Shown: piece after piece, positions 1 through 19,625 of the stretch
Layout: each line of letters begins with the position of its first letter
Numbering within the stretch: position 1 is the stretch's first letter
From: Streptomyces roseochromogenus subsp. oscitans DS 12.976
GTDB taxonomy: Bacteria > Actinomycetota > Actinomycetes > Streptomycetales > Streptomycetaceae
Assembly (NCBI RefSeq): GCF_000497445.1
Contig: NZ_CM002285.1
Location: 2,458,350-2,491,150 of the forward strand
Length of the DNA stretch: 32,801 bases
Direction of reading: 5' to 3'
Made by a program: the position numbers and the translations under genes
Notes under the pieces: model-generated
The model's input: only the letters and a program-made list of their open reading frames with translations
Databases searched by the model: none
What the model was told of the DNA's origin: nothing

Positions 1-465
1 GGACTGCGGGCCCCACACCGGGTTGACCGGTCCGCCGGCGCCCTGGGAGGCGTTGTGGATGGCGAGGTACTCGTTGCGGCCGGCGTGCAGGGTGCCCAGG
101 ACGACGCCGGTCCGGTCGGGGTCCACGGCCTCGCGGACGCCGGCGGCGTGCGCGGCGTACAGCAGCAGCCGGGCGTCGCGGCTCATGGCGCGGGCAGCGC
201 GGGCGCCGGCCACGTCGGTGAGGTCGAGCGGGGTGCGGACGTGGCCCGCGAAGACCTCCGGGTCGGTGTCGTCCGCCGTGGCCCGCTCCGGGTGGGCGGC
301 GGGCAGTGGGTTGGCGACGAGCGGGACTCCCTGGGTGGTGAAGGGCCGCCGGCCGTCCAGCAGGTCCTCGAAGAGCCGGGCGACCGAGGTGCCGCAGGCG
401 GTCACCGCTCCGGCAGCGGTGATCACGGCGCCCGTCGAGGGCGGTGACGGATTCGGTGTACGCAC
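1..465 (-). CDS. Ketosynthase/chain-length-factor-like protein, N-terminal part (cut by window edge)
   Basis: The frame is open from a GTG at 465 to the window edge, giving 155 residues. An AAGGA ribosome site lies five bases before the GTG. The start ITAAGAVTACGTSVARLF resembles the first strand and helix of thiolase-fold ketosynthases, and VVLGTLHAGRNEY and NPVWGPQS fit the region before the active-site nucleophile. That nucleophile lies outside the window, so an active KS cannot be told from a Cys-lacking chain-length factor. It follows a Cys-containing ketosynthase by 83 bases on the same strand, which is the usual KS-then-CLF order in type II polyketide clusters, so I favour a CLF-like partner. 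It is divergent; a second independent ketosynthase is the alternative. Confidence 0.7.
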   Translation of the reverse strand, partial: MRTPNPSPPSTGAVITAAGAVTACGTSVARLFEDLLDGRRPFTTQGVPLVANPLPAAHPERATADDTDPEVFAGHVRTPLDLTDVAGARAARAMSRDARLLLYAAHAAGVREAVDPDRTGVVLGTLHAGRNEYLAIHNASQGAGGPVNPVWGPQS

Positions 466-548
466 ATCAATCCTTCAGGCAGTGAGGGCGGTTGACGAGG
501 GGCGCCCGGCCCGTCGGGGTGGGGCGCGTCGGCGGGCGTGCGGGCGGC

Positions 549-1766
549 TCAGTCCGGGTAGCGCGCCAGCACGATCGCCGAGGTGTTCCCGCCGAAGCCG
601 AACGCGTTGCTGAGGGTCACCCGCACGGGCATGTCGCGGGCGGGTCCGCGCACCACGTCCAGGCCGGCGCAGCTCTCGTCCGCCTCCCGCAGGGTGGGGT
701 TGCCGGGGACGCGGCCGTCGCGGATGGCGAGGACACACGCGATGGCCTCCACGGCGCTCGCGCCGCCCTGGGAGTGGCCCATCAGGCCCTTGATGGAGGA
801 GACCGCGGGCGTGCCGCCCCGGCTGCCGAAGTACTCGGCCAGGCAGGCCGCTTCCAGGGAGTCGTTGGCCGGGGTGCCGGTCCCGTGCGCGCTGACGTAG
901 TCCACCTCGCGCGGGTCGATGCCGGCCTGTTCGAGGCTGTCCTGCATGCACCGCAGCATGCCGAGACCCTGCGGGTGAGGGGCCGTCATGTGGTGGGCGT
1001 CGGCGGCGAGCGCGTAGCCCGGCAGTTCGGCCAGGACGGTGGCGCCGCGCCGCACCGCGTGCTCCAGGGACTCCAGCACCAGGACGCCGGCGCCTTCGGA
1101 GGGCATCATGCCGCGCCGGTCCCGGTCGAAGGGGCGTACGGCGTCGGGGGCCAGCGCGCGCAGGGTGGTGAACAGCCGGTACACGGATTCCGACAGTTCG
1201 TCCACGCCGCCGGCGACCATGGCGTCGGCCTGTCCGGAGCGGATGGCGTCGGCGGCCATCGCGAGGGCGGTGTTGCCCGCGGCGCAGCCGGCCGCGACCA
1301 CCTGCCGGGGCCCGCGCAGTCCGAAGGCACGACCGGGTTCCCGGGCCAGCGACTGCGGTGAGTCCCAGGAGAAGTCCTCGGTGAGCGGGCGGCCCTGGCG
1401 GCGCAGTTCCTCCAGATGCGGGCGGGTGCCCATGACGGTGCCGACCACGATGCCGGTGCGTGCCAGACCCGGGTGGCCGAGCAGTCCGGCGTCTCGCAAC
1501 GCGGCGTCGACGGAGTGGTGGACGTAGCGCAGGGAGCGCGGGACGCTGCGGCCGTCCGAGGTCAGCGGGGCGGTCAGGGCGGGGTCGGTGACCTCGGCGG
1601 CCAAGTGGGTGGGGTATCCGTCGGTGGGGAACCGGGTGACGGGTGCGGTCGCGACGGTTCCAGCCGTGACGTTGCGCCAGAACTCCTCGACCTCGGTGCC
1701 GAGCGGGGTGGCCAGCCCCAGGCCCGTCACGACAACCCGGTGGCGGCCCCTCGTGTCACGCGACAT
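549..1766 (-). CDS. Beta-ketoacyl-ACP synthase (FabF/type II KS family)
   Basis: This 405-residue protein has the full condensing-enzyme layout. VVVTGLGLATPLG opens the fold. The nucleophile is Cys161 in AAGCAAGN, and the two active-site histidines are His294 in SAHGTGTPAND and His331 in SIKGLMGH, with Lys326 beside the second. It should catalyse decarboxylative Claisen condensation on an acyl carrier protein. The start is the ATG whose first 11 bases overlap the end of the ACP gene; upstream in-frame sequence is out-of-frame ACP. The AAGCAAGN nucleophile context differs from the TACASG-like motif of aromatic type II KSs, suggesting a specialised, possibly reducing or starter-specific, system. 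It sits in the P450-UbiA-ACP-KS-CLF operon. Family assignment is firm; substrate is unknown. Confidence 0.93.
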   Translation of the reverse strand: MSRDTRGRHRVVVTGLGLATPLGTEVEEFWRNVTAGTVATAPVTRFPTDGYPTHLAAEVTDPALTAPLTSDGRSVPRSLRYVHHSVDAALRDAGLLGHPGLARTGIVVGTVMGTRPHLEELRRQGRPLTEDFSWDSPQSLAREPGRAFGLRGPRQVVAAGCAAGNTALAMAADAIRSGQADAMVAGGVDELSESVYRLFTTLRALAPDAVRPFDRDRRGMMPSEGAGVLVLESLEHAVRRGATVLAELPGYALAADAHHMTAPHPQGLGMLRCMQDSLEQAGIDPREVDYVSAHGTGTPANDSLEAACLAEYFGSRGGTPAVSSIKGLMGHSQGGASAVEAIACVLAIRDGRVPGNPTLREADESCAGLDVVRGPARDMPVRVTLSNAFGFGGNTSAIVLARYPD

Positions 1767-1998
1767 GCCGGGCGACCTGACGGCAGAGGTCCTCGACGGT
1801 GTCGCTGACGGCGACCTGCTCGTGGGTGAGCGAGCAGTTGAACCGGGACTCGATGTGGGCGACGATCTCCAGCTTCTGCAGCGAGTCGCCGCCGAGGTCG
1901 TCATAGAAACGAGCCTGAGGGGGCACCTGTTCGGTCGGCAGGGTCAGTACGCCGGCGACGACGTCGGTGACCACGGCGCGGATCTCGGTCTCGTTCAT
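1756..1998 (-). CDS. Acyl carrier protein
   Basis: An 80-residue protein of normal ACP length with the phosphopantetheine motif DLGGDSLQKLEIV, the modified serine being Ser39. The start ATG at 1998 shares an ATGA overlap with the stop of the prenyltransferase gene, and its own end overlaps the ketosynthase start by 11 bases, so the three genes should be translationally coupled. It would carry the growing chain for the neighbouring ketosynthase and be activated by the Sfp-type transferase at 7034-7738. A free-standing ACP beside KS and KS/CLF genes points to a type II polyketide or fatty-acid-like line rather than a modular PKS. Confidence 0.95.
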   Translation of the reverse strand: MNETEIRAVVTDVVAGVLTLPTEQVPPQARFYDDLGGDSLQKLEIVAHIESRFNCSLTHEQVAVSDTVEDLCRQVARHVA

Positions 1999-3059
1999 GA
2001 GTGCTCCTTGACGGTGAGGGCGGGGCCGAACAAGCGGACCCAGCGGCGCAGATGAGACAGGGTCAGGCCGCCTGACCAGTGCAGGGTTTTGGAGGCCACG
2101 AGCCAGTAGGCGATCCCCGCGGCGGCGGCCGCGGCGGCGGCCCGGGTCGGGGCGCAGGCCGTCAGGCACAGCGCGAGGAAGTAGAAGGTGTACTGGTGCA
2201 TCACCTCGCGGGCCGCCTCACGGTCCAGCGGGGCGACCGCCCGGGACGCGGCGGTGACCACGAGCGCCGACACCGCCACGAGCGGCAGCAGCGCAAGGGC
2301 CGGCAGCGGCAGGACGTGCAGCGCCGCGTACAGCGCCAGCAGCAGGAACGGTGCGCCGATGAAGGCGTACACGGCGGCGCCCCGTCCGATCCGGGCCACC
2401 GAGAGCCACAGGCTGGAGTAGCCCAGGCGACGGTCGCCCTCGACGTCGGTGATGTCCTTGATGCCGGACAGACCGAGGCTGAAGGCGGCCAGCACGGACA
2501 CGGCCGGCAGTACCGGGGACAGCAGGGTGTCATATCCGCCGTACACCGCCCAGCCGGTCAGCAGGGGCGTGATCAGCGGTGCGGTCAGGGCGAGCAGGGC
2601 AAGGACGCGGTGGCGCTTGAAGGCGGGGCCGATCGAGTAGCCGATGGCCACGCCGATGTCGACCAGCAGCAGGGCGGGCAGGGCGAAGCCGGGGTGCCGC
2701 CAGGTGAGGGCCGCGCCGATGAGGACGAACACCGTCCAGGACAGCACGGCCACCGCAGTGAGCCGGGACCAGCCGAACTCCTCGCACAGCCGGGTGCGTT
2801 CGGGCCGGTTGACCTCGTCGGCCGCCCGGTCGGCGATCCGGTTGACCGACTCGGTGCCCACGCAGTAGGCGAGCCACATCGGCACGCCCAGCAGGGCCAG
2901 GCCGGGACCCAGGTGCCCGGTGGCCGCGAGTCCGGCGGCGAAGCCCACCCAGTAGTAGGCGGTGAAGCGGACGCTGCAGCTGCGCAGCAGAAGCAGCACC
3001 GCACGGCGGGCGGTCGGCGGTCGCACCCGGTGGGCCGGGGCCGTCAGGGGGGCGGTCAT
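1995..3059 (-). CDS. UbiA-family membrane prenyltransferase
   Basis: A 354-residue, very hydrophobic protein with about eight or nine predicted membrane segments. It carries both aspartate-rich motifs of the UbiA superfamily: NRIADRAAD (Asn73, Asp77, Asp81) and DITDVEGD (Asp202, Asp205, Asp209). These bind Mg2+ and the prenyl diphosphate. YSIGPAFKRH at about 141-150 matches the conserved YSxxPxxxK-type loop. The family transfers prenyl groups to aromatic rings or quinone precursors in the membrane. The start follows the P450 stop by one base and the stop overlaps the ACP start, so it is co-translated with both. Placement beside a class II DAHP synthase suggests a chorismate-derived aromatic acceptor, but acceptor and prenyl length cannot be read from sequence. 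Confidence 0.92.
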   Translation of the reverse strand: MTAPLTAPAHRVRPPTARRAVLLLLRSCSVRFTAYYWVGFAAGLAATGHLGPGLALLGVPMWLAYCVGTESVNRIADRAADEVNRPERTRLCEEFGWSRLTAVAVLSWTVFVLIGAALTWRHPGFALPALLLVDIGVAIGYSIGPAFKRHRVLALLALTAPLITPLLTGWAVYGGYDTLLSPVLPAVSVLAAFSLGLSGIKDITDVEGDRRLGYSSLWLSVARIGRGAAVYAFIGAPFLLLALYAALHVLPLPALALLPLVAVSALVVTAASRAVAPLDREAAREVMHQYTFYFLALCLTACAPTRAAAAAAAAGIAYWLVASKTLHWSGGLTLSHLRRWVRLFGPALTVKEHS

Positions 3060-3060
3060 G

Positions 3061-4588: not shown

Positions 4589-6007
4589 TCAGTCCCTGAG
4601 CATCTGCGCCAGGAGGAAGGCCAGTTCGAGCGACTGGCGGTGGCTCAGACGTGGGTCGCACGCCGTCTCGTAGCGCCGGTGCAGGTCCTGGACGAGCAGC
4701 CCGTCCGCGCCGCCCAGGCACTCGGTGACGTCGTCGCCGGTCAACTCCACATGGACGCCGCCCGCATGCGTGCCCAGCGCCCGGTGCACCTCGAAGAAGC
4801 CGGACACCTCGTCCAGGATGTCGTCGAAGCGCCGTGTCTTGTGACCGCTGGTCGCCTCGAAGGTGTTGCCGTGCATGGGATCGCACACCCAGGTGACCGC
4901 GACGCCGTTGGCGGTCACCTTCTCCACCAGCCCGGGGAGCACGTCGCGGATGCGGCTCGCGCCCATGCGGGTCACGAACGTCAGCCGGCCGGGGCTGTTG
5001 CCGGGGTTGAGCCGGTCGGCGTAGGCGAGGGCCTCGTCCGCGGTGACGGACGGGCCGAGTTTGACCCCGATGGGGTTGCGGATGCGGGCGAAGTAGTCGA
5101 CGTGCGCCCCGTCCAGGTCACGGGTGCGCTCCCCGATCCACAGGAAGTGGCCGCTGGTCGCGTACGACAGCCCGGTGCGCGGGTCGGTGCGGGTGAGGGC
5201 GTCCTCGTAGTCGAGGAGCAGCCCTTCGTGCCCGGCGAAGAACTCGACGCCACGGGTGGCGTGGGGGTCGACGCCGCAGGCTTTCATGAAGCGCAGCGAG
5301 CGGTCGATCTCGCCGGCCAGGTCCTCGTAGCGGCGGCCGGCGGGCGAGTCGCGTACGAACCCCTGGTTCCAGGCGTGCGCCTCGCGGAGGTCGGCGGAGC
5401 CTCCGGTGGCGAAGGCGCGCACCAGGTTGAGGGTGGCCGCGGAGGAGTCGTACATCCGGCGCAGTCGGCGGGCGTCGGGGGTGCGGGACGCGGGGCTGAA
5501 CTCCAGCCCGTTGACCGCGTCCCCACGATAGGCGGGCAGCGTGACGTCGTCACGGGTCTCGGTCGGCCGTGAGCGCGGCTTGGCGTACTGGCCGGCCATC
5601 CGTCCCACCTTGACCACGGGCACCTGTGCGGCGTACGTGAGGATCACGGCCATCTGCAGCAGGGTGCGCAGTTTTCGGCGGACGGAGTCGGTGGTGGTGC
5701 CGGTGAACGTCTCGGCGCAGTCGCCGCCCATGAGGACGAAGGCCCGGCCGTGGGTGACGTCGGCCAGCCGGGCGGTGAGGCGGTCGGACTCCTCGGCGGA
5801 GACGAGTTCGGGTGCGCGGGCCAGTTCGGCGGTGACGGCGGCGAGCAGCGCCGGATCGGGCCACCGGGGCTGCTGAGCGGCCGTCAGGTCGCGCCAGGTG
5901 CTGTGCGCCGTGCGCGGTACGGGTGCTGTGGTCATGTCGGGTTCACGCATCACGGCCTTCGCTTCGGTCGGCGGGACAGTGGGTGGGCGCTCGGCGGGCA
6001 CGGTCAT
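4589..6007 (-). CDS. Class II (plant-type) 3-deoxy-D-arabino-heptulosonate 7-phosphate synthase
   Basis: A 472-residue protein that condenses phosphoenolpyruvate and erythrose 4-phosphate, the first step of the shikimate pathway. Family landmarks are LMGGDCAETF, the GRMAGQYAKPRS phosphate/PEP-binding stretch, GVEFFAGHEGLLLDYE, IGVKLGPS, the metal-site region WVCDPMHGNT, and an HVELTGDDVTEC tail. The start is set by the ATGA overlap with the TesB gene stop at 6004-6007; longer reading upstream runs into TesB out of frame. Pathway copies of class II DAHP synthase, as in phenazine and other aromatic clusters, raise chorismate supply and often escape feedback control. With the trpD copy at 14972 it argues that the cluster product has a shikimate-derived aromatic part. 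Confidence 0.95.
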   Translation of the reverse strand: MTVPAERPPTVPPTEAKAVMREPDMTTAPVPRTAHSTWRDLTAAQQPRWPDPALLAAVTAELARAPELVSAEESDRLTARLADVTHGRAFVLMGGDCAETFTGTTTDSVRRKLRTLLQMAVILTYAAQVPVVKVGRMAGQYAKPRSRPTETRDDVTLPAYRGDAVNGLEFSPASRTPDARRLRRMYDSSAATLNLVRAFATGGSADLREAHAWNQGFVRDSPAGRRYEDLAGEIDRSLRFMKACGVDPHATRGVEFFAGHEGLLLDYEDALTRTDPRTGLSYATSGHFLWIGERTRDLDGAHVDYFARIRNPIGVKLGPSVTADEALAYADRLNPGNSPGRLTFVTRMGASRIRDVLPGLVEKVTANGVAVTWVCDPMHGNTFEATSGHKTRRFDDILDEVSGFFEVHRALGTHAGGVHVELTGDDVTECLGGADGLLVQDLHRRYETACDPRLSHRQSLELAFLLAQMLRD

Positions 6008-6903
6008 CGGGCCCCCTCGTGGCCGCGCGGGCCCAGCCGGAACAGCGCCTCCTGGACCACGCTGGCCACCAGCCGGCCGTCCTCGTCGAAGAAGCGGCCA
6101 CAGGCCAGGCCCCGGCCCTGGCCGGCGGTCGGGGACTCGCAGTCGTACAGCAGCCAGGTGTCGGCCCGGAACGGGCGGTGGAACCACACCGAGTGGTTGA
6201 GGCTGACCATGGTGACCGGGTCGAGGCCCCAGTAGACGCCGTGGCCGAGCAGGATCGAGTCCACGAGCGTCAGGTCGGTGGCGTAGGCGAGCGCGGCCTG
6301 GTGCGACAGGGGTGTGTCCGGGAGCCGTTCCACGGCGCGCAGCCAGGCGCGGTGAGCAGGCCGCCCGGGTCCGCGTGCGGCACCGGCCCAGGGCGGCTCG
6401 GTCTCGTAGCGCAGGTCGAAGGGGCGGACGACGTCGGGGATCGCGCCGAGCCGACCGGACATGGGGCCGAGCGCGTGCGCGTACGTCGGCCACCGGTCGG
6501 GCGGGGGTGCTGCGGGTGCGGTGACGGCGTGTTCGGGGCCCTGCTCGGTGTCCTGGAACGAGACGGTGACCGTGCACACGGCCCTCTCGCCCTGGCGTAC
6601 CGCCACCTGCCGCACCCCGAAGGACCGGCCGTCGTGCAGATCCTGCACGTGGAAGTCCAGGGGACGGGCGGGATCCGCACCGCGCAGGAAGACGATCTGC
6701 GCGGCGTGCGCGGTACGGCCCCCGGGCACGGTACGGGAGGCCGCGGTCAGCGCCTGGGCGAGCAGTTGGCCGCCGAAGACGCGGGGCGGGGCGGCTGCCG
6801 GGCTGTGTCCGCGGAACACTCCTGCTTCGATTTCCTCCAGATCCAGTATTTCCAGCAGCGGGCTCGTGGCCGCGTTCTTTTCGGCGGCTCGCGTTTCTGA
6901 CAT
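6004..6903 (-). CDS. tesB: Acyl-CoA thioesterase II (TesB family)
   Basis: A 299-residue double-hotdog thioesterase, close to the 286 residues of E. coli TesB. The catalytic triad of the family is visible: Asp in YATDLTLVDSIL, Ser/Thr position in VSLNHSVWFHRPF, and Gln in SVVQEALFRLG. It hydrolyses acyl-CoA, or possibly acyl-ACP, thioesters. It is translationally coupled to the DAHP synthase through ATGA. The ATG at 6903 has only a weak ribosome site; a GTG further upstream is possible, but the N-terminus from MSETRAAEKN aligns best with family length. It could release a polyketide or fatty acyl chain or remove misprimed chains; the direct substrate is not evident. Confidence 0.9.
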   Translation of the reverse strand: MSETRAAEKNAATSPLLEILDLEEIEAGVFRGHSPAAAPPRVFGGQLLAQALTAASRTVPGGRTAHAAQIVFLRGADPARPLDFHVQDLHDGRSFGVRQVAVRQGERAVCTVTVSFQDTEQGPEHAVTAPAAPPPDRWPTYAHALGPMSGRLGAIPDVVRPFDLRYETEPPWAGAARGPGRPAHRAWLRAVERLPDTPLSHQAALAYATDLTLVDSILLGHGVYWGLDPVTMVSLNHSVWFHRPFRADTWLLYDCESPTAGQGRGLACGRFFDEDGRLVASVVQEALFRLGPRGHEGAR

Positions 6904-7033: not shown

Positions 7034-7738
7034 TCAGCCGGCCGCGGGCAGCACGGTCCAGCACAGCACCGCTCCGGCCACCCACCGCACCCTTGTCCGC
7101 AGCACGGGCCCGGCCTGCCCGTGCTGCCATGCCTCGAACCCGTGCGGGACGGGTCGTACGGCGATGTCACGCAGGGTCCGCGGCGATGCGGCGCCTCCGG
7201 GCAGGGCGGCGAGGGCCTTGAACACGGCCTCCTTGGCGGAGAAGACCGTGTGCAGCAGCCGCCGGGCCGCCGCCGGATCACCGGCGGCGGTCGCCTCCAG
7301 CCATCCGGCCTCCCGGGGAGTCAGCACCAAGTGTGCCGCTTCCAGGGGGAGTTGATGCAGTTCAAGGTCGACACCCACCGTACGGCAGGTGTCCCTCCGC
7401 GCGGCAAGTGCGACCGCCGTCCCGCCGGAGTGGGTCAGTGAGGCCACGGTCCGGTCGGGCACCTTCGGCCGCCGACCCTCGTAGGAGATGTCCGGGGCGG
7501 GGCAGCCGACCGCGTCCAGGGCCCGGCGCAGTGCCCACCGGCCGGCCAGGAACTCCTGGCGTCGCGCGGCCCCCATGCACCGGGCGAGGCCGCGCTCGGC
7601 GGGACCGCCGGGCAGAAGCGCGGTCTCCTCGGTGCCGGCCAGACCGAGTGCCAGACCCTGTGCCGAAAGCAGCGGGCGCAGGGCCCGGACGGCGTCGGCG
7701 AGGCTGCTCACCCGCCCCTGGGGCACCGGTGCACGCAC
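7034..7738 (-). CDS. Sfp/EntD-type 4'-phosphopantetheinyl transferase
   Basis: A 234-residue protein with the two metal and CoA-binding signatures of Sfp-type transferases, GVDLE and FSAKEAVFKAL, plus the substrate-contact segment RRQEFLAGRWALRRAL. It transfers the phosphopantetheine arm of CoA to carrier-protein serines and most likely activates the ACP at 1756-1998. I choose the GTG at 7738, four bases after the lyase stop, because an upstream ATG at 7792 would place 18 residues inside the lyase gene and gives unfamily-like sequence. It is the third gene of the aspartate N-oxygenase-lyase-transferase operon. Family is certain; the start is moderately sure. Confidence 0.92.
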   Translation of the reverse strand: MRAPVPQGRVSSLADAVRALRPLLSAQGLALGLAGTEETALLPGGPAERGLARCMGAARRQEFLAGRWALRRALDAVGCPAPDISYEGRRPKVPDRTVASLTHSGGTAVALAARRDTCRTVGVDLELHQLPLEAAHLVLTPREAGWLEATAAGDPAAARRLLHTVFSAKEAVFKALAALPGGAASPRTLRDIAVRPVPHGFEAWQHGQAGPVLRTRVRWVAGAVLCWTVLPAAG

Positions 7739-7742
7739 CGTG

Positions 7743-11373: not shown

Positions 11374-12447
11374 TCAGGAGGCGACGGACGTCACCGTCAC
11401 CTCGCCGGCCTCGATACGGGCGGCGAACCGGTGCCACTGCTGGGCGCATTCCATGGCCAGCGCCGAGACGACCTGCGCGCGGTGCCGCGGGACCGAGCGG
11501 GCGATACTGTCCCAGCGCTGCGGGTGCAGGACGTGCATCTCCATCATGCGCAGCAGCTGGCGGCCGTCCTCGGTGAGCCGCAGCGATGGGTCGCGGCACA
11601 TCCGGCGGAACATGTCGATCCAGTCGAGGTTGTCCACCATCGGCTGCCGCGGCCGCTCATCCGTCTCCCAGCCCGGTGCGACGACCGACCACGGCTGTGG
11701 GCGGGGTGCGCTCTGCGGGGCCGGGGGCGTGGTGGGTTTCTCGCCGCGCCGGTGGCTGGGCACGATGTCGTCACCGCGGTCGAGGCGGGCGCGGACATCG
11801 CGCACGGTGCCCGGTGAGACGCCCGCCTGTTTCGCGATGGCACGCAGCGAGGCGTGCGGCGACTCAAGGATGAGCCGGCCGGCGATGCGGCGGCCCTCCG
11901 CGCTGTTCAGTGGGCGTCCCCGCCCGTCGCGCCCGACGCGTGTGGTGGCCTCGCCCAGGTCGCCGAGCTTGTGGCGCTGGGCGCCCACGGTCTTGGACGA
12001 CAGACCGGTGACCCGCGCGATGGCACGGTCGGACCACTCCGGATGGGAGCCGAGGATGCGTACCGCGGCCGCCCTGCGGTCGGCGAGGGAGAGCGGCAGG
12101 CCGTGCCTGACGTTCGTCCTGACGGCGAAGACGAAGGCGTCCTCCGCGGATCCGTCGAAGAAGCGGACCTCGATCTCGGTCTCGCCGCGCAGGACCGCGG
12201 CCTTCAGGCGGTGCCGTCCGTCGACGACCTCCATGGTGGCGCGGTGGACGACCAGCGGTGGCCGTGCCTCGTCGGAGTCCGCCAGCAGACGTACGTGTTC
12301 CTCGTCCTCCGCGTTGACGCGCGGTGAGCGCCCGGGCCGGAGCGAGGCGACCGGTACCCGGTGCACCTCGGAGAGCCGGTCCTCCGCACTGGCTCTCGCA
12401 CGTTCCGCCTCGTGAGCGGCCTGCTGTACGTCATCGGCCATAACCAT
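11374..12447 (-). CDS. StrR/NovG-type pathway-specific transcriptional activator (ParB-like N-domain)
   Basis: A 357-residue regulator. Residues about 30-110 (VPVASLRPGRSPRV, PPLVVHRATMEVVDGRHRLKAA, EIEVRFFDG) form the ParB/sulfiredoxin-like domain, followed by NVRHGLPLSLADRRAAAVRIL and the helix-turn-helix SDRAIARVTGLSSKTVGAQR. A second HTH-like segment, ASLRAIAKQAGVSPGTVRDVRARL, precedes a variable C-terminus. This arrangement is that of StrR, NovG and related antibiotic activators. The ATG at 12447 follows a GGAAGG ribosome site. Its promoter carries an ARE-like receptor box and, further upstream, a 29-bp dyad element shared with the P450 operon, so it is probably repressed by a butyrolactone receptor and may autoregulate. 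It is the likely master activator of the cluster. Confidence 0.9.
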   Translation of the reverse strand: MVMADDVQQAAHEAERARASAEDRLSEVHRVPVASLRPGRSPRVNAEDEEHVRLLADSDEARPPLVVHRATMEVVDGRHRLKAAVLRGETEIEVRFFDGSAEDAFVFAVRTNVRHGLPLSLADRRAAAVRILGSHPEWSDRAIARVTGLSSKTVGAQRHKLGDLGEATTRVGRDGRGRPLNSAEGRRIAGRLILESPHASLRAIAKQAGVSPGTVRDVRARLDRGDDIVPSHRRGEKPTTPPAPQSAPRPQPWSVVAPGWETDERPRQPMVDNLDWIDMFRRMCRDPSLRLTEDGRQLLRMMEMHVLHPQRWDSIARSVPRHRAQVVSALAMECAQQWHRFAARIEAGEVTVTSVAS

Positions 12448-12723: not shown

Positions 12724-13341
12724 ATGATCCAATCCAGAGCGGTGCGCACGCGCCAGGAACTGATCCGGGCCGCGGCGGAGGCGTTCGCGCTCCGCAGCTA
12801 CCACCAGGCGACGATCGCCGACATCAGCGAGGCCGCCGGGGTCAGCCCCGGCGGCCTGCACTTCCACTTCACGAACAAGGCGGCCATAGCCGAGGCGGTG
12901 GAGGACGAAGCGGCCCAACTGCTGCGCGCCACCTGTCGCGACGCACGCTCGGGCGCACACACCAGCCTCCAGGCGCTCATCGACGCCTCGCACGCGATCG
13001 CCGCACTGCTCAGCGGGAACATCGTCGCCCGCGCAGGCCTCCTCCTCGGCCAGGAGCCCACCCGCTCTTCGAAGCTGTCCCTGCATCAGGAGTGGGCCGA
13101 GTGCATTCACCTGCTGGTCCGCCGCGCGGTCGAGGAGGGGCAGCTGTCCTCCGACGTCTCCCCGCGGGACCTGTACACGGCGGTACTCGCGGCGACCGTG
13201 GGACTGGAGGCGCTCGGCCGAGGCGACGGGCGCTGGCTCACCCCGCAGACACTCGCCTCGTTCTGGCGTCTGCTCCTGCCCCGCATCTGCCCGCCGCACC
13301 GGGCCGTCCACCTCAACCCGACCGGGACGGCGGCCCGTTGA
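12724..13341 (+). CDS. TetR-family regulator of the gamma-butyrolactone receptor type (possible pseudo-receptor)
   Basis: A 205-residue protein. The N-terminal DNA-binding domain includes RTRQELIRAAAEAF and the HTH TIADISEAAGVSPGGLHFHF. The C-terminal FWRLLLPRICPP...LNPTG matches the tail of ArpA/ScbR-type receptors and that of the second receptor at 18975. A tryptophan at position 124 (HQEWAE) corresponds roughly to the ligand-pocket Trp of this family. I choose the ATG at 12724, which has a GGGA site six bases upstream, over an ATG 36 bases earlier. It is divergent from the StrR-like gene and just upstream of the exporter. The HTH is less receptor-like than that of the second copy, so a pseudo-receptor binding other signals, such as the product, is possible. 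Confidence 0.85.
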   Translation: MIQSRAVRTRQELIRAAAEAFALRSYHQATIADISEAAGVSPGGLHFHFTNKAAIAEAVEDEAAQLLRATCRDARSGAHTSLQALIDASHAIAALLSGNIVARAGLLLGQEPTRSSKLSLHQEWAECIHLLVRRAVEEGQLSSDVSPRDLYTAVLAATVGLEALGRGDGRWLTPQTLASFWRLLLPRICPPHRAVHLNPTGTAAR

Positions 13342-13423: not shown

Positions 13424-14866
13424 ATGGCCCTCACTCGCTCGGACTCGTCAGCAGCCTCCGAGGCGGTGCAGCCACCCCCAGGATCGCGTGAGTGGCGTGT
13501 GCTGTCCGTGGCGCTCATCGCCGCGTTCATGGCGGTCTTCGACCTGTACGTGGTCAACATCGCCGCCCCGACCCTGCGCACCGACCTGCACGCCGGTGAC
13601 GCCTCTCTGGAACTCGTGGTGTCCGGCTACGCGTTCACCTACGCGGCGGGCCTGGTAACCGGGGGCCGGCTCGGCGACCGCTTCGGCTACCGCACGATGT
13701 TCGTCGCCGGCATGGCGGCCTTCTCCGTCGCCTCCCTGCTGTGCGCGCTGGCCACGACCCCCGGCCAACTGGTCGCCGCCCGACTGCTGCAGGGCCTGAC
13801 CGCCGCTGCGATGGTCCCCCAGGTCCTCGCCCTGATCACCGTCACTTTCCCGGCCGCCCACCGCGCCCGGGCGACCGGCTGGTACGGCGCGGTCAGCGGC
13901 CTCGGCGCCCTGTGCGGGCAGATCCTTGGCGGCCTGATCCTCAAGGCGGACCTCTTCGGCCTCGGCTGGCGCGGCATCTTCGTGGTCAACGTGCCCGTCG
14001 GCGTGATCGCGGTGGCGCTCGGCCTGACCGTTCTGCCGCGCACCCCGGCGGCGCAGAAGGCCAAGTTCGACCCGATCGGCGCGCTCACCGTCTCACTGGC
14101 CCTGGCCCTGGTGCTGGTCCCGCTCTCCCTCGGCCGGGAGTCCGGCTGGCCGCTGTGGACCTGGCTCTGCCTGATCGCCTCGGTCCCGGTCATGTTCGCG
14201 GCGATCGCCTGGCAGCGGTCCCTGCTCCGGCGCGGCGGCGCGCCCATCATCAACACCGCCCTGTTCCGCAACCGGCCCTACTCGCTGATGCTGTCGGCCG
14301 CTTCGACGTACCAGCTGTACTTCGGCAGCTTCCTGTTCGCCCTCACCCTGGTGGTGCAGAGCTGGCTCGGCACCTCCCCCGACCGGGCCGCACTCGTGTT
14401 CCTGCTCCAGGGCGTACTGTTCACCGTCGCGTCCATGGTCGGCGGAAAGCTGATCGCCCGGTACCGCACCGGTGTACCGGTGGTGGGCGGCGTCCTGGTG
14501 ATCGCAGGCCTGCTGCTGATCACCGGCGAACTGGCGGCGGGCGGACCCGGGTTGTCTGCCTGGTGGCTCGTGCCGCCGCTGGCCGTGATCGGCCTGGGCA
14601 ACGGCCTGCTGCTGCCCCCGCTGATCGGCGGCGCGCTGTCCCGCGTGCAGCCGGAGCAGGCGGGCGCCGCCTCCGGAACCCTGAACACGGCCCAGCAGTT
14701 CGCCAATTCGCTCGGCGTCACCGTGATCGGCACCGTGTTCTTCGCGCTCGCCGGACCGGCGCTGCACTCGGCGGGCCACGCCATGGAGATCCTCAACGTG
14801 GTGTACGCCCTCCTGACCGCCGCCGTGATCGCCCTGGTGAAGCTGGCGGACCGGGCCGGCCGCTGA
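13424..14866 (+). CDS. DHA2-family MFS drug exporter (14 membrane segments)
   Basis: A 480-residue membrane protein. Segments run from WRVLSVALIAAFMAVFDLYVVNIA through the motif-A-like loop GGRLGDRFGYRTMF between helices 2 and 3, GRESGWPLWTW in the middle, and NTAQQFANSLGVTVIGTVFF near the end. This is the pattern of 14-helix proton-driven drug/H+ antiporters such as those that export actinomycete antibiotics. The ATG at 13424 is preceded by GGAG; the upstream in-frame ATG lacks a ribosome site. Controlled probably by the TetR gene 83 bases upstream, it likely exports the cluster product and gives self-resistance. Confidence 0.92.
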   Translation: MALTRSDSSAASEAVQPPPGSREWRVLSVALIAAFMAVFDLYVVNIAAPTLRTDLHAGDASLELVVSGYAFTYAAGLVTGGRLGDRFGYRTMFVAGMAAFSVASLLCALATTPGQLVAARLLQGLTAAAMVPQVLALITVTFPAAHRARATGWYGAVSGLGALCGQILGGLILKADLFGLGWRGIFVVNVPVGVIAVALGLTVLPRTPAAQKAKFDPIGALTVSLALALVLVPLSLGRESGWPLWTWLCLIASVPVMFAAIAWQRSLLRRGGAPIINTALFRNRPYSLMLSAASTYQLYFGSFLFALTLVVQSWLGTSPDRAALVFLLQGVLFTVASMVGGKLIARYRTGVPVVGGVLVIAGLLLITGELAAGGPGLSAWWLVPPLAVIGLGNGLLLPPLIGGALSRVQPEQAGAASGTLNTAQQFANSLGVTVIGTVFFALAGPALHSAGHAMEILNVVYALLTAAVIALVKLADRAGR

Positions 14867-14971: not shown

Positions 14972-16030
14972 GTGTCCGCTCAGTCGCAAGGCCGTAGCTG
15001 GCCGAAACTGCTGGATTCGCTGCTGCGCCGCAGCGACCTGCACGCGCGGGACACCGCTTGGGCCATGGACCAGGTGATGTCCGGCGCCGCCCCACCCGCC
15101 GCTCTTGCAGGCCTGTTGGTGGCCTTGCGCGCCAAGGGCGAGACCGTCGAGGAGGTCGAGGGGCTGGTGCGCTCCGCGTACCGGCACGCGCTGCCGCTGG
15201 AGATCGCCGGTCCCGCGCTCGACATCGTCGGCACCGGCGGGGACGGCTCCGACAGCGTCAACGTCTCGACGATGTCAGCGATCGTGGCGGCGGGTGCCGG
15301 GGCCCGGGTGGTCAAGCACGGCAACCGTTCCGCGTCCTCCGCCTGCGGCTCGGCCGACGTCCTGGAGGAACTGGGTGTGGTGCTCGACCTGTCCCCGCAA
15401 GACGTCCGGGACGTGGCCGAGGACGTCGGCATCACCTTCTGTTTCGCCCGGCTCTTCCATCCTGCGATGCGCCACGCCGCGCCCACCCGGCGCTCGCTCG
15501 GGGTACGTACGGTGTTCAATCTGCTCGGGCCGCTGTGCAATCCGGCCCGGCCCTCGGCCCAGGCGGTGGGTGTGGCGGATCCGGCCGCGGCACCGCTGAT
15601 CGCGAGGGTACTCGCCCGCCGCGGCGTGTCGGCCCTGGTCTTCCGGGGCGACGACGGAGTGGACGAGTTGTCGGTCACCACGACCTCCGCCATCTGGTCG
15701 GTCACCGGCTCGGGAATCCGGTCCGAGACCTTCGACCCTCGCGACATCGGCTTCACGCTGGCCAGCCCCGACGCTCTCCGCGGTGGCGACCCCGCCCACA
15801 ACGCCCGGGTGGCCCGTGACATTCTGGCCGGCGAACAGGGGCCGGTCCGCGACGCCGTGCTCCTGTCGGCCGCCGCCGGTCTCGCCGCGCTGGAGCCGTG
15901 CGACCGTCCGGTGGCCGAACGCCTGGAGGACGGCGTACGACGAGCCGCCGCGTCCATCGACTCGGGGGCCGCCGCGAGCATCCTGGAACGCTGGGTCGCG
16001 GTCACCGTGAAACGCGCGCTGGACGCCTGA
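14972..16030 (+). CDS. trpD: Anthranilate phosphoribosyltransferase, pathway copy
   Basis: A 352-residue protein with all main TrpD landmarks: [17 protein letters not shown] (PRPP/phosphate loop), [22 protein letters not shown], and [17 protein letters not shown]. It transfers phosphoribose from PRPP to anthranilate in tryptophan synthesis. GTG at 14972 has GAGGAG eight bases upstream. It follows the exporter by 105 bases on the same strand and ends at a strong bidirectional terminator. No trpE, trpC or trpA/B genes accompany it, so it is not part of a primary trp operon. It either boosts tryptophan supply, diverts anthranilate, or acts on a related aromatic amine; the sequence alone does not decide. 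Confidence 0.92.
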
Positions 16031-16038
16031 GAAAACCG

Positions 16039-16102: not shown

Positions 16103-16966
16103 TCACGTACCTCGCGCGAAGGCCCGCAAGGACCGCTCGATCCAGGCGGCGTACGTGCCCGCGGGGCGGCCCAGCAGCCGCGCCACGGTGTCGGCCACGC
16201 CTCCCTTCGCATCGGCCGACCGCCCGTCGGCCCGGTCCACGAGGGCCTGGGCCACCGGTTCCGGGTAGCGCCGGTGCAGCATCGCCAGCGTTTCCTCCCG
16301 GGAACGCTCGGCGAAGGACAGCGGGCGACCGAGCGCCCCGGACAGGATCCGGGTCTGCTCCCGGGCCGTCAGCGCCTCGGGGCCGGTCAGCGGGTAGGCC
16401 CGTCCGGCATGCCCGTCCTCGGTGAGGACCCGGGCCGCCACCGCCGCGACGTCCGCCGGATCGACACAGGCCGACGGGACGTCCCCCGGCCAGTGCCGCA
16501 CCGTGTCCGTGGCCTTCACCTCGGCGGCCCACGCCAGGGTGTTGGTCATGAACGCGCGGGGCCGCAGCAGTGTCCAGTCCGAGCCCGAGGCCCGGATGCG
16601 GTCCTCGCTCTCCCGCTGCCAGCGGGTCACCAGGTCCCGCGCCCGTGCCTGGGTGGCGGCGAGCGCGGACAACTTCACCAGGTGGCGCACACCCGTGTCG
16701 GCCGCGGCCCGCACCAGGTGGGCGTCCTGCTCCGGGCGGGTCGGGTCGGACGTGATGACGAGAACCGCCCGGACGCCGGTCATGGCCCGCCGAAGCGTCT
16801 CGGGAGCGTCGAAGTCCCCGATGGCGACCTGCGCTTCGGCGCCGGGTTCCGGCGCCGGTGCGCGAACCGCGTCGCGCACCAGCAGCCGGACGGGGTGGCC
16901 CGAACGCATCAGGGTCCGGGCGGTGAGCCGCCCCACCGTGCCGCTCGCGCCAGTGATCAGGATCAC
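16103..16966 (-). CDS. NmrA-like NAD(P)-binding reductase
   Basis: A 287-residue atypical short-chain dehydrogenase. MILITGASGTVGRLTARTL is the NAD(P) Rossmann motif, LVKLSALAA and SDWTLLRPRAFMTNTL are typical of NmrA/NAD(P)H-binding (YtfG-like) proteins, and PSACVDPADVAAVAARVL follows. It is third in the afsA-SDR-NmrA operon, starting 16 bases after the SDR stop. Butyrolactone synthesis needs reductases after the AfsA condensation, so a role in reducing the butenolide or keto group is plausible. Some members are redox sensors or quinone reductases instead; the exact role is inferred from context. Confidence 0.85.
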   Translation of the reverse strand: MILITGASGTVGRLTARTLMRSGHPVRLLVRDAVRAPAPEPGAEAQVAIGDFDAPETLRRAMTGVRAVLVITSDPTRPEQDAHLVRAAADTGVRHLVKLSALAATQARARDLVTRWQRESEDRIRASGSDWTLLRPRAFMTNTLAWAAEVKATDTVRHWPGDVPSACVDPADVAAVAARVLTEDGHAGRAYPLTGPEALTAREQTRILSGALGRPLSFAERSREETLAMLHRRYPEPVAQALVDRADGRSADAKGGVADTVARLLGRPAGTYAAWIERSLRAFARGT

Positions 16967-16982
16967 CGTGCTCCTCGTGTTG

Positions 16983-17759
16983 TCATCGCGCGGTCACCCC
17001 GCCGTCGACCGGCACGGTCGCCCCGGTGACGAAGGACGAGCCGTCGCCGAGCAGCCACGCGGCGGCCCTGGCCACCTCCTCCGGCTCCGCGAGCCTGCCC
17101 ACCATCGACTCGGAGGCCAGCCGGTCCTCCAGACCCGGGTACTGGTCGAGCGCCTCTTGGAGCAGCTCGGTGCGGGTGGCGCCGATGGCCAGGACGTTGG
17201 CCCGGATCCCCTGGGACCCGTACTGGTCCGCCGCCGCCTTGGTCAGGCCGATCACGGCGTGCTTGGCCGCGATGTAGGGGGCGCCGGGCAGAAAGTGGCC
17301 GACGACCCCGGCGGTGCTCGACGAGCTGACCACGGCGCCGCCGCCCGCGGTGGCGATCATCGCGGGGATCTGGCGGCGCAGACAGTTCCACACACCTCGC
17401 ACGTTCACGTCGAAGACCCGGTCGTACTCGGAGTCCTCCGTCAGATGCAGCGGCGTACGGGGAGCGCCCCAACCGGCGTTGTTGAACGCGCCGTCCAGCC
17501 GCCCATAGGTCTCGACAGCCGCCTCGACCACACGCCGTACATCCTGTGCCGAGGTGACGTCACCGGCGACCGCGTGGGCCGGGCCACGGGTCGCAGTGAT
17601 CTCCCTGGCCAATGCCTCGAGGGGCTCAGGGTTGCGGGCCATCAGCACTACGCGGGCGCCTTCGGCGCTGAACACACGGGCGGCCGCGGCTCCGATGCCG
17701 CTGGAGGCACCGGTGATCATGACGACCTTGCCGGCGAGCATGCCCTGGGAGTGCGTCAT
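16983..17759 (-). CDS. Short-chain dehydrogenase/reductase in the butyrolactone operon
   Basis: A 258-residue classical SDR. It has the TGASSGIG cofactor loop, FNNAGWG, the catalytic Ser in SSSSTAGV, the YIAAK Tyr-Lys pair, and a C-terminal GATVPVDGGVTAR. It should reduce a ketone or oxidise an alcohol with NAD(P)H. The ATG at 17759 shares an ATGA overlap with the end of afsA, which sets the start; an upstream in-frame ATG lies inside afsA. Butyrolactone clusters commonly pair AfsA with such a reductase to reduce the 6-keto group or the butenolide of the signal. A tailoring role in the main product is the alternative. Confidence 0.9.
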   Translation of the reverse strand: MTHSQGMLAGKVVMITGASSGIGAAAARVFSAEGARVVLMARNPEPLEALAREITATRGPAHAVAGDVTSAQDVRRVVEAAVETYGRLDGAFNNAGWGAPRTPLHLTEDSEYDRVFDVNVRGVWNCLRRQIPAMIATAGGGAVVSSSSTAGVVGHFLPGAPYIAAKHAVIGLTKAAADQYGSQGIRANVLAIGATRTELLQEALDQYPGLEDRLASESMVGRLAEPEEVARAAAWLLGDGSSFVTGATVPVDGGVTAR

Positions 17760-18742
17760 ACCGCCCTCCCCGCGAGCTGGAGCACCGGCTGCCTCTGCTC
17801 GGACGGGTACGGAAGGAACGTGAGCTCCAGTCCGTCCCCGCACGGGCTCAGGGGGATCACTCCGCGGGCCGCCTCCTGGTCGCGCTGCCACACCTGCACC
17901 GGTACCTCGACGGCTCCTCCGTCCGGCCGGGTCGGTGTGCCGGTGGTGAGGTAGCAGGGCAGGTCGTGCTCGACATAGTGGGAGAAGGCCGTCTGCATAC
18001 GGGCCGTCACCGCGCCCGACAGACCGGTCACGGCCTGGGCCGTCTGCCGCATCGCCTCGATGATCGCCATGCCCGGGACATGATCGAGCGGGTGGTCGTA
18101 GAGGACCGGGTGATCGCGTTCGGCTCGCAGCAGGAACGTACCGGGCAGTCCACTCGACGCGATGACGACGTCCTGGGGACGTACCCGGCCCACGGCGACC
18201 GGCTCCACGGGAGCCGGAAGTGCGGGCAGGGCCGGATCCTCGGAGGAGCGGGCCTCGGCCCGCAGCCGCCGGTAGACGCCCGGCGACATGCAGCGGTAGT
18301 CGAACGTACCCGAAGCGACCTCCCGGCCCTCGCGCCTGAGCACCATCGTGCCCCGGACGCCGAACAGCGTCCGGCCGCGCCGCCGCACCTCCAGGCAGTT
18401 CACCTCCAGATCCAGCCGGGTCCGGGTGTCGGCCGGAGCCAGCGCCTCCCAGTCGACCGTGTGGCTCAGCTCGTTCATGACAAAGCTGTGCCCCTTCGGC
18501 ACGTCGTACGCGACGTGACCGACGAGGATCCCCGCCTGCCGCATCGTCTCGGACACCAGTTGCGGATCACTGCCGCCGTCCGCGCACGGGCCGTAGAACC
18601 TGTGGTCCCGCGGCCAGTGCACAGAGACATTGAAACGATTCTCCTCGCATTGCTCCACCCCCGTGACGAGCACCTGCTCGCCGTTGCGGCGGTGCACCAG
18701 GTCCTTCAGCAGAGTCGCACTCCGCGTCGCAGCCAGGCACAC
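17756..18742 (-). CDS. afsA: AfsA-type gamma-butyrolactone synthase
   Basis: A 328-residue protein with two hotdog-like AfsA repeats. The first contains FNVSVHWPRDHRFYGP and KGHSFVMNELSHTVDW, and the second VLYDHPLDHVPGMAIIEAMRQTAQ. AfsA joins a beta-ketoacyl-ACP to dihydroxyacetone phosphate, the key step in making A-factor-type signals. The GTG at 18742 has GAGG four bases upstream. Its promoter region carries an ARE-like box matching the one before the StrR-like gene, so the receptor probably controls signal synthesis as well. It heads an operon with an SDR and an NmrA-like reductase and is divergent from the receptor gene at 18975, the classic synthase/receptor arrangement. Confidence 0.95.
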   Translation of the reverse strand: MCLAATRSATLLKDLVHRRNGEQVLVTGVEQCEENRFNVSVHWPRDHRFYGPCADGGSDPQLVSETMRQAGILVGHVAYDVPKGHSFVMNELSHTVDWEALAPADTRTRLDLEVNCLEVRRRGRTLFGVRGTMVLRREGREVASGTFDYRCMSPGVYRRLRAEARSSEDPALPALPAPVEPVAVGRVRPQDVVIASSGLPGTFLLRAERDHPVLYDHPLDHVPGMAIIEAMRQTAQAVTGLSGAVTARMQTAFSHYVEHDLPCYLTTGTPTRPDGGAVEVPVQVWQRDQEAARGVIPLSPCGDGLELTFLPYPSEQRQPVLQLAGRAV

Positions 18743-18794
18743 GTCACCTCACCAGCTTTCGTTCCACCCCCGCCCAGCGCGGGAAGATCGGGAG

Positions 18795-18825: not shown

Positions 18826-18831
18826 TGAGAA

Positions 18832-18860: not shown

Positions 18861-18881
18861 AAATGTCTCATTTGATGGAGC

Positions 18882-18903
18882 AAACAAACCATCCAGTTGT
18901 TCT
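18882..18903. promoter_or_regulatory. Third ARE-like box in the receptor gene leader
   Basis: AAACAAACC at 18882-18890 and GTTGTTCT at 18896-18903 form an ARE-like inverted AAAC/GTTG element of 22 bases about 70 bases before the receptor start. The left half is a strong match to receptor boxes, the right half weaker. A perfect GTTCT-CA-AGAAC dyad (18899-18910) overlaps its right end. It fits autoregulation of the receptor gene. Confidence 0.5.
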
Positions 18904-18974
18904 CAAGAACGGGGATAGGATGCACCAAGCAATACGGCCCAAAGGAGAAGGAACGCAGCCCGGAGGAAGGGACA

Positions 18975-19625
18975 TTGGCCCGCCAAGAACGCGCTTTGCG
19001 CACCCGAAGAAAACTCATCGATGCCGCCGCGGCCGTCATCAGCAAGCGCGGCTACCGGGCTGCCACGATCGCCGACATCATGGAGGCCGGCGACGTCACC
19101 AGAGGCGCGCTCTACTTCCACTTCAGCTCGAAGCGGGCGCTCGCCGACGCCATCATCCAGGAGCAGACCCTCCCCTACACGGTGACCGCGCCCGGCTCCC
19201 CGCTCCAGCGGCTCATTTCGATGAGCCTGGAGATCGGACGGGGGCTGCAGAACGACCCGTTGCTCAGAGCGGGCACCCGCATTACCGTCGATACGGTCTT
19301 CGACGATGCGCCGGTCACCCCGTTCGAGGAGTGGAACACGGTGGCCGTCGCGCTGCTGACGGAGGCCCGCGACGCCGGGGAGCTGCTGCCGCACATCGAT
19401 CCCGGAACCTGTGGCGAGTTCATCGTGGCCGCCTTCACCGGAGTCCAGCTCTTCTCCCAGGCGGCGTCCGGTCACGCGGACCTGTCGGAGCGCATCACCA
19501 ACCTGTGGCGACTGCTGCTGCCGGGCATCGCCCATCCCGCGGCGATCACCTACCTGAATCCGACCTTCCCCGACAGCCGCCCCGGAGCCCCGGCCGACCA
19601 GCCCCTCGAACCCTCGGACGCCTGA
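18975..19625 (+). CDS. Gamma-butyrolactone receptor (ArpA/ScbR-type TetR repressor)
   Basis: A 216-residue protein if it starts at the TTG at 18975. The HTH TIADIMEAGDVTRGALYFHFSSKRALADAI is very close to the receptor signature, and the ligand-pocket tryptophan is Trp120 in FEEWN, near ArpA Trp119. It ends LWRLLLPGIAHP...LNPTF. I choose TTG because GGAGGAAGG lies just upstream and the length then equals ScbR (about 215); the longer frame to an ATG at 18897 adds an unfamily-like tail. Divergent to afsA and flanked by ARE-like boxes, it should repress afsA, itself and the StrR-like gene until the butyrolactone binds. Confidence 0.9.
   Translation: MARQERALRTRRKLIDAAAAVISKRGYRAATIADIMEAGDVTRGALYFHFSSKRALADAIIQEQTLPYTVTAPGSPLQRLISMSLEIGRGLQNDPLLRAGTRITVDTVFDDAPVTPFEEWNTVAVALLTEARDAGELLPHIDPGTCGEFIVAAFTGVQLFSQAASGHADLSERITNLWRLLLPGIAHPAAITYLNPTFPDSRPGAPADQPLEPSDA

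Follow-up and report, generated by a model that had tools for sequence, protein, structure and literature searches.

A 61-kb island of Streptomyces roseochromogenus in which aurachin-type genes and genes of a candidate diazo-anthranilate pathway interleave

Two biosynthetic gene sets in one island

The DNA analysed here (the window) is a stretch of 32,801 nucleotides of Streptomyces roseochromogenus subsp. oscitans DS 12.976 (G000:C1:2458350-2491150; genome size 9.78 Mb), and it contains the right half of a 61.3-kb island. The island carries the genes of an aurachin-type prenylating polyketide core and a second set of genes resembling diazo-anthranilate pathways. Two anthranilate-fed lines are probably interleaved here, with nitrite from the CreE/CreD pair of the window feeding l35, a CreM-like protein encoded about 43 kb to the left of CreD, which would act on (chloro)anthranilate. 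The gene families and motifs, the linkage of the genes (across runs of N) and the island ends are directly observed.

Genes were called with a codon model, families were assigned by Pfam and NCBIfam profile scans, and best PDB matches were found by sequence. All positions are in window numbering, negative coordinates lying to the left of position 1. Comparisons covered a genus set of 392 genomes, the same-genus genome G031, the further genomes G154 and G386, 37 UbiA relatives from a protein search and five loci from a scan of named genomes; a second UbiA search (296 relatives) added no genomes beyond those already found.

A preliminary description, made from the window, had named ketosynthase (KS), acyl carrier protein (ACP), UbiA, cytochrome P450, 3-deoxy-D-arabino-heptulosonate 7-phosphate (DAHP) synthase, TesB, phosphopantetheinyl transferase (PPTase) and creE/creD genes, and gene calling and profile searches recover all of them. 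Its view that the combination was unlike known ones stands for the joined island: no described cluster joining both halves was found in the open-licence PMC literature, including the covered parts of PMC11705231, PMC11429834 and PMC13061610. It does not stand for the halves, each of which is of a kind already described. By pairing two known pathways, the joined form could lead to a new hybrid compound. Aurachins inhibit the respiratory chain (PMC10295502), and natural products with a diazo group are rare (PMC10477347). A bounded 61-kb element that joins both chemistries lends itself to heterologous expression, and it allows a test of whether the aryl-diazonium pathway coupling described for tasikamides is more general.

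Boundaries of the element

The island is bounded by 26-bp direct repeats at -40470..-40445 and 20856..20881, the left copy having one mismatch to the right one. The repeat, CTGCCAGAA(G/A)ACCGTCAACCGCATGA, stands at both ends and overlaps the start of a DUF3046 gene. In G031 only 2.5 kb separate recA from the counterpart of gene g41, behind which lhr follows, and the flanks on both sides are collinear; here the recA-g41 distance is about 64 kb. Homology to G031 changes flank at the repeat: the G031 intergenic sequence aligns with the left flank up to -40447 and with the right flank from 20856. The site in G031, the one relative examined at this position, is uninterrupted, that is, empty. Judging from these alignments, the block from about -40.5 to +20.9 kb behaves as one inserted element at the DUF3046 gene beside recA. 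Because both ends agree with a single uninterrupted site, the comparison also supports the scaffold order.

RecA/RecX (-44.9..-42.8 kb) lie outside the island on the left. On the right, a conserved flank on the plus strand (21035..28129; a conserved open reading frame (ORF), Lhr helicase and Fpg) adjoins recA in G031, and everything right of about 21 kb is ordinary chromosome, with ferritin, CinA and CDP-alcohol phosphatidyltransferase genes besides lhr and fpg. No tRNA was found at the island ends, and a first 389 kb of G031 searched for recA contained neither that gene nor lhr. Stepwise insertion at one hot spot may be an alternative to a single insertion. The DUF3046 start beside recA may serve more widely in the genus as an integration site.

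These boundaries qualify the earlier statement that the cluster is truncated on the left: a gene is indeed cut at the window edge, while the genome continues and the island extends to about -40.5 kb. The leftward extension that had been proposed added an aryl-CoA ligase, a thioesterase, methylerythritol phosphate (MEP) pathway genes, an isoprenyl diphosphate synthase, the anthranilate synthase TrpEG and the line with CreM-like, halogenase and kynureninase genes. The anthranilate starter and the CreM-like line had been missed because they lie outside the window.

The aurachin-type genes

The core lies on the minus strand at the left edge of the window. It comprises a SauD-like KS-beta or chain-length factor (CLF; N-terminal end at 1..465), a SauC/AuaC-like KS-alpha (549..1766; PF00109/PF02801), a SauB-like ACP (1756..1998; PF00550, 2e-12), a SauA-like UbiA prenyltransferase (1995..3059; PF01040) and a cytochrome P450 (3061..4335; PF00067), the SauP counterpart by gene set, with the heme motif FGRGIHYCLG. 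KS-alpha keeps the active-site Cys, HGTGT..ND and K...GH, and the ACP has a GGDSL site. The type II acyl chain building and prenylation predicted in the preliminary description agree with this gene content.

The CLF gene extends through an N-run (-787..0) as far as about -1270 and is readable at its two ends only. Its far end gives a borderline match to the KS C-terminal domain (20.8 bits, at the cut-off) and matches a S. alanosinicus gene; the distance from its start to its stop is not divisible by three, the N-run falling inside the gene. The S. alanosinicus homologue a38 (376 aa) shows no HGTGT, no K...GH and no active-site Cys, which fits the expectation for a chain-length factor.

Further core functions are encoded to the left of the window. 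They include an aryl-CoA ligase (-2817..-1267) that scores above the cut-off of TIGR02262 (benzoate-CoA ligase) and matches benzoate- and anthranilate-CoA ligases in the PDB, a thioesterase II (-3557..-2814), LytB/IspH (-8883..-7708), a 357-aa isoprenyl diphosphate synthase (-9953..-8880; farnesyl diphosphate synthase PDB 8f8f, E 3e-55), 1-deoxy-D-xylulose 5-phosphate (DXP) synthase (-11839..-10010) and GcpE/IspG (-13032..-11875). A fused TrpEG anthranilate synthase (-15406..-13187, plus strand) scores above the TIGR01815 and NF010081 cut-offs (869.8 and 932.1 bits). A phenazine origin of the DAHP synthase and TrpEG was considered and rejected on these scores; TrpEG matches PDB 3r74, which we take to be PhzE, only weakly (E 2e-20).

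The fused TrpEG and the benzoate/anthranilate-type ligase indicate that the aromatic starter is most likely anthranilate. A chorismate-derived aromatic had been proposed from the DAHP synthase, and TrpEG narrows that proposal to this compound. With an anthranilate starter, the KS, ACP, UbiA and P450 genes correspond to the described sau/aurachin gene set, and the island holds the UbiA, ACP, KS-alpha, KS-beta and ligase genes of aurachin-type clusters, the substrate of the ligase being a prediction.

The closest aurachin systems are sau (Streptomyces sp. NA04227), rau (Rhodococcus) and aua (Stigmatella). The sau cluster for aurachin SS encodes a prenyltransferase, an ACP, two KS, an anthranilate ligase/transferase, a thioesterase, isoprenyl diphosphate, DXP and 4-hydroxy-3-methylbut-2-enyl diphosphate (HMBPP) synthases and two P450s (PMC10295502). 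All sau functions listed there (sauA-E, K, L, M, N and P) have counterparts in the island, the isoprenyl diphosphate synthase corresponding to sauL, and the thioesterase, P450 and MEP genes are present as in sau. The island has one P450 where sau has two, and it adds CreE/CreD, DAHP synthase, PPTase, TesB, TrpEG, IspH, a phosphoenolpyruvate (PEP)-utilising enzyme and the halo-anthranilate/diazotase line.

The window UbiA is 60% identical to the UbiA P0030 of strain NA04227, which, given strain and family, we infer to be SauA. In a UbiA tree, the window protein groups with P0001 (95% identity) and P0002 (NPDC050997, 87%); NA04227 sits on a long branch and several deep forks are unsettled. UbiA, ACP, KS, ligase and thioesterase are common to S. 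alanosinicus, SID8352 and S. physcomitrii, and the KS-alpha is 54-72% identical to the KS of three UbiA loci other than that of S. alanosinicus. The A. xylanica locus (UbiA 42%) has UbiA, KS, ligase and P450, and the 5.3-kb S. xiaopingdaonensis contig has P450, UbiA and a major facilitator superfamily (MFS) gene only. G031 and G154, which represent one lineage (UbiA 96%), keep UbiA, ACP, KS and thioesterase; the G031 UbiA is 99.7% identical to that of S. buecherae. Two of the UbiA relatives, P0031 (431 aa) and P0033 (500 aa), combine PF01040 and PF00550 in one protein and are apparent UbiA-ACP fusions.

The nitrite module

To the right of the core, CreE (9134..11092), CreD (7743..9137), PPTase (7034..7792), TesB (6004..6903) and DAHP synthase (4589..6007) follow one another head to tail on the minus strand. 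With the starts as called, the overlaps are 4 bp for CreE/CreD and for TesB/DAHP synthase, and 50 bp for CreD/PPTase. All genes from CreE through the CLF share this strand, with 253 bp between DAHP synthase and P450.

CreD scores above the nitrosuccinate lyase cut-off (NF052556, 764.7 bits, cut-off 650), matches PDB 5xny 'CreD' at E 9e-169 and is the genome's only match above that family cut-off. CreE, a predicted FAD L-aspartate N-monooxygenase (PF13454), matched no NCBIfam family; its best PDB match is 8cp2 (E 2e-197), annotated 'FAD-binding protein', which is presumably the solved L-aspartate N-hydroxylase. The adjoining pair has the make-up of an aspartate-nitrosuccinate (ANS) nitrite module, and the in-cluster nitrite supply envisaged earlier is thus still predicted. 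The structure of an L-aspartate N-hydroxylase is described in PMC10404684. Among the other genes of the string, the class II DAHP synthase (TIGR01358, 680 bits, cut-off 614.7) would serve shikimate supply, TesB is an acyl-CoA thioesterase by PF02551 (TIGR00189 below cut-off) and the PPTase is of Sfp type (PF17837/PF01648). Elsewhere in the genome, far from the island, lies a second CreE homologue (57%; G000:C1:6855984-6857843). A second CreD-like gene, split between two reading frames that score 58 and 477 bits (both under the cut-off), lies at G000:C1:1436021-1437339.

CreE-like genes are common: 321 of the 392 genus genomes match at E <= 1e-60, so that their presence alone says little. CreE was accordingly rejected as a pathway marker, UbiA being found in four genomes at E <= 1e-40, including our own and one 34% match. 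A CreD-like gene occurs in all eight tested genomes with a UbiA match; only in S. alanosinicus does it lie within about 25 kb of UbiA, the nearest copy being about 390-420 kb away in G031 and G154 and on a separate contig in the other five.

Co-occurrence of creE/creD with UbiA, a check suggested in the preliminary description, was found at one of six other UbiA loci with at least 10 kb of flank, that of S. alanosinicus, where both genes lie about 20 kb away; the other five show neither in the flanks covered. No CreE/CreD match turned up in G031 or G154 up to about 40 kb from the core, nor in the 10-kb core flanks of SID8352, S. physcomitrii and A. xylanica; the S. xiaopingdaonensis assembly is too fragmented to judge adjacency. 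None of the 37 UbiA proteins lies on a contig equal in length to that of any CreE homologue among the best 120 of 1458 (our own included), a set that omits the 64% S. alanosinicus CreE, so that this negative covers close CreE relatives only. Judged by relatives' flanks and homologue lists, CreE/CreD seem not to belong to the standard make-up of aurachin-type cores, and that candidate role was dropped.

This distribution bears on the proposal that the prenylated polyketide is itself the target of nitrite. The free aryl amine of an aminobenzoyl-ACP chain would then be diazotised and either close on the chain carbon to form a cinnolone (an aza-aurachin) or be coupled to form an N-N prenylated aromatic. 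Such a route would suit the co-directional CreE-to-DAHP synthase string beside the P450-UbiA-ACP-KS operon; S. alanosinicus likewise has TrpEG, CreE, CreD and a CreM-like gene at a distance of about 20 kb from its copy of this core. The two sets of SID8352 could also be neighbours, since its core ends a few kb short of a contig end and its CreD/CreE/CreM-like genes stand at the border of a different contig. The route is nonetheless unlikely, given the cores that lack a nearby CreE/CreD and the placement of the diazotase in the other line rather than with the prenylated polyketide genes. The NPDC050997 core, the nearest on a long contig, likewise has no equally long contig among the best 120 of 1458 CreE matches, a result that again concerns close CreE only.

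Genes of the candidate diazo-anthranilate line

With the CreM-like protein of S. alanosinicus as query, the CreM-like AMP-binding protein l35 (-36423..-34837) is the genome's only match at E <= 1e-30. It is 46% identical to its relative in G386, which has no CreE nearby, 45% in SID8352, 44% in S. xiaopingdaonensis, 43% in S. alanosinicus and 39% in G031, and the relatives in the last four of these genomes lie at most 10 kb from CreE. The Mg-binding glutamate of its YGQSE motif is kept in all seven aligned copies (YGQ(S/T)E).

Around l35 stand the FAD oxygenase l34 (-38183..-36420), with a FAD-oxidoreductase-like and a glyoxalase-like gene to its left, and the CoA ligase l36, between l35 and a kynureninase (-33285..-32098) that scores above its family cut-off. 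Next, going right, come a flavin reductase and a Na/H-exchanger piece, then a tryptophan halogenase (-29394..-27799), and then esterase, tryptophan 2,3-dioxygenase, crotonyl-CoA carboxylase/reductase and ACP genes, the last beside g06. The 443-aa product of g06 (-24315..-22984) has two weak matches, the first to carrier proteins and the second to a transglutaminase-like family. Between g06 and TrpEG are two 2-oxoacid-oxidoreductase-like genes, two luciferase-like monooxygenases and a beta-ketoacyl-ACP synthase (KAS) III.

This set resembles the diazo-anthranilate clusters for Japp-Klingemann hydrazones, aha (tasikamides) and pzm (penzonemycins), which have CreE, CreD, a CreM-type diazotase and an anthranilate core; pzm also has DAHP and anthranilate synthases, as here (PMC9323291, PMC11705231). 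In tasikamides, diazo-anthranilates couple by Japp-Klingemann chemistry (PMC9323291, PMC11705231). The likeness is one of description. Unlike aha and pzm, the island has a tryptophan halogenase/dioxygenase/kynureninase supply, an aurachin core inside and no non-ribosomal peptide synthetase (NRPS) among the genes scanned.

The ava and cma clusters share CreE/CreD, a diazotase, KS, CLF, ACP and an acyl-ACP ligase with the island; they differ in using 3-amino-4-hydroxybenzoate (3,4-AHBA), and no UbiA appears in the part of the gene table covered (PMC10777205). The pairing of a CreM-like gene with CreE/CreD, as in ava/cma, raises the alternative that the nitrite branch removes an amino group by diazotisation-dependent deamination, as in avenalumic acid, leaving a product without an N-N bond (PMC10777205). 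This is the least probable of the alternatives, and improbable in itself: no AvaA7 denitrification enzyme was assigned, and the NmrA-like protein at 16103-16966, which was not compared with AvaA7, sits with AfsA and short-chain dehydrogenase/reductase (SDR) genes.

Related loci and the joining of the two sets

The closest parallel is the 69-kb contig NZ_BMVG01000035 of S. alanosinicus JCM 4714. It encodes counterparts of DAHP synthase (59%), the CreM-like protein, TrpEG (68%), CreE (64%), CreD (69%), P450 (78%, adjoining UbiA), UbiA (71%), KS (73%), ligase (65%) and the PEP-utilising enzyme (70%). The order there, head to tail, is CreM-like, hotdog thioesterase, aryl ligase, berberine bridge enzyme (BBE) oxidase, TrpEG, CreE and CreD; some 20 kb lie between this nitrite set and a block of P450, UbiA, ACP, KS, CLF, ligase, thioesterase and PEP-utilising enzyme genes. 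Gene order thus differs from that of the island, and no halogenase, dioxygenase or kynureninase match was found in 59 kb. The contig has instead a Paa-type multicomponent oxygenase, a BBE oxidase, an acyl-CoA dehydrogenase, a CoA transferase and extra KS-like genes. Because the S. alanosinicus CreE is not among the best 120 of 1458 CreE homologues (64-71% identity, our own protein excepted), the homologue list, rather than a tree, suggests that the nitrite module joined the aurachin core separately in the two organisms.

In G031, a diazo-type cluster of about 15 kb contains relatives of l35, g06 (32%), l36 (43%), l34 (40%), TrpEG (62%), CreE (61%) and CreD (64%), and lies about 390 kb from the UbiA core. 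Contig C43 of G386, whose genome gave no UbiA match, carries close relatives of the halogenase (78%), esterase (74%), tryptophan dioxygenase (70%), l36 (70%), kynureninase (66%), l34 (64%), l35 and g06 (43%). In the present island, genes of the G031/G386 type stand on both sides of the aurachin core.

The separate lives of the two sets suit a reading in which the island houses two independent pathways, one to an ordinary aurachin and the other to a diazo- or hydrazone-anthranilate compound, that have only anthranilate supply in common: UbiA cores elsewhere lack nearby CreE/CreD, the G386 cluster resembling the left line occurs without UbiA, and the two G031 sets are far apart. This reading is doubtful, for here the sets interleave within one bounded element in the order diazo genes, TrpEG, aurachin core, CreE/CreD, and S. 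alanosinicus has the same pairing in another arrangement. The G031/G154 lineage and SID8352 also hold both kinds.

Homologues of g06 occur in 16 of the 392 genus genomes, including all three with a UbiA of at least 60% identity (our own, G031 and G154), and in two of six further genomes with a UbiA match (SID8352 and A. xylanica). The co-occurrence of g06 and UbiA is suggestive. In several genomes, among them G031, G154 and SID8352, relatives of g06 also lie next to CreM-like genes.

Proposed pathway

For the favoured interleaving of the two lines, we infer the substrates and the order and direction of the steps as follows. In the first line, DAHP synthase and TrpEG would raise anthranilate, which the ligase would load onto the ACP. 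The resulting anthraniloyl-ACP would be extended with malonyl units by KS/CLF and closed to a 2-alkyl-4-quinolone. UbiA would then prenylate the quinolone, with isoprenoid from the MEP genes and isoprenyl diphosphate synthase of the island, and the P450 would oxidise the product, by homology to the described sau route. In the second line, tryptophan would first take up a halogen and be opened by tryptophan dioxygenase; loss of the formyl group and cleavage by kynureninase would then yield (chloro)anthranilate, which could be activated by a CoA ligase and hydroxylated on the ring. CreE and CreD would convert aspartate to nitrite, and the CreM-like adenylating enzyme l35 may use this nitrite to diazotise the aryl amine. 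TrpD, an anthranilate phosphoribosyltransferase (14972..16030, plus strand; TIGR01245, 357.5 bits, cut-off 199), probably leads anthranilate back to tryptophan, on which the halogenase would act.

The diazonium could be coupled to the quinolone line (as an azo compound or by Japp-Klingemann chemistry), be coupled elsewhere or be lost as N2. The first of these fates would make the island a single pathway, in which the (chloro)anthranilate diazonium is joined to the aurachin line to give an azo- or hydrazone-linked or cinnolone prenylated quinolone, encoded by one mobile element with at least two arrangements (here and in S. alanosinicus). The single mobile element, the nesting of the genes and the parallel case in S. 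alanosinicus speak for such coupling, and the separate occurrence of both lines in other genomes speaks against it. We regard the single pathway as conceivable but put it well below an even chance.

Several observations weigh against the interleaved-pathway reading. The l35 protein reaches 53.8 of 975 bits at the AvaA6 diazotase family NF058622, far below the cut-off, and is therefore called CreM-like only; l34 is likewise below the cut-off of its best NCBIfam family, salicylyl-CoA 5-hydroxylase (320.9 of 1078 bits). CreE/CreD stand in a string with DAHP synthase and PPTase beside the aurachin operon and away from the diazotase. G386 keeps its CreM-like gene with a best CreE match of 4e-74 (three of 22 first-look candidates scored), so a CreM-like enzyme may not depend on CreE/CreD. 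In 80 kb of G031 and G154 neither a ligase nor a P450 match was found, even at 1e-5; some cores of this type may therefore start from something other than anthranilate, and the G031/G154 core may use a different starter. A scan of the called island genes, which leaves aside N-runs and uncalled small ORFs, recognised no integrase. Finally, the linkage between left flank and window crosses N-runs of 788 bases (-787..0), 350 bases each near -30.8 and -29.8 kb and 25 bases each near -18.7 and -15.8 kb; the join is consistent with the island ends and with the order of genes in S. alanosinicus, neither of which reads through these runs.

Regulatory and accessory genes

The right part of the island encodes a possible regulatory and export section. 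A regulator with weak helix-turn-helix (HTH) matches (11374..12447, minus strand) is followed on the plus strand by a TetR regulator (12742..13341; PF00440) and an MFS exporter (13424..14866; PF07690). Beyond TrpD, profile scans identify the NmrA-like reductase, SDR and AfsA genes (16103..18742, minus strand), whose families point to synthesis of a gamma-butyrolactone-type signal. The TetR protein at 18975..19625 (plus strand; PF00440/PF21935) is possibly the butyrolactone receptor, given its position.

Between the thioesterase and IspH lie an 821-aa PEP-utilising enzyme (-6327..-3862), with a rifampin-phosphotransferase/PigC-like architecture and all scores below cut-offs, and a tyrosine-phosphatase-like gene (-7352..-6438, plus strand). 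The PEP-utilising enzyme is present in three of eight genomes (our own, S. alanosinicus and S. xiaopingdaonensis). It was rejected as a nitrite-linked enzyme, no close CreE occurring on any of 18 contigs (best 120 of 1458 CreE homologues). These contigs come from a lead in the UbiA set: 18 of the 37 UbiA proteins have a PEP-utiliser homologue on an equally long contig (best 36 of 156 compared). Roughly half of the UbiA relatives thus appear to have this enzyme as a companion, and roles in tailoring or self-protection would be guesses.

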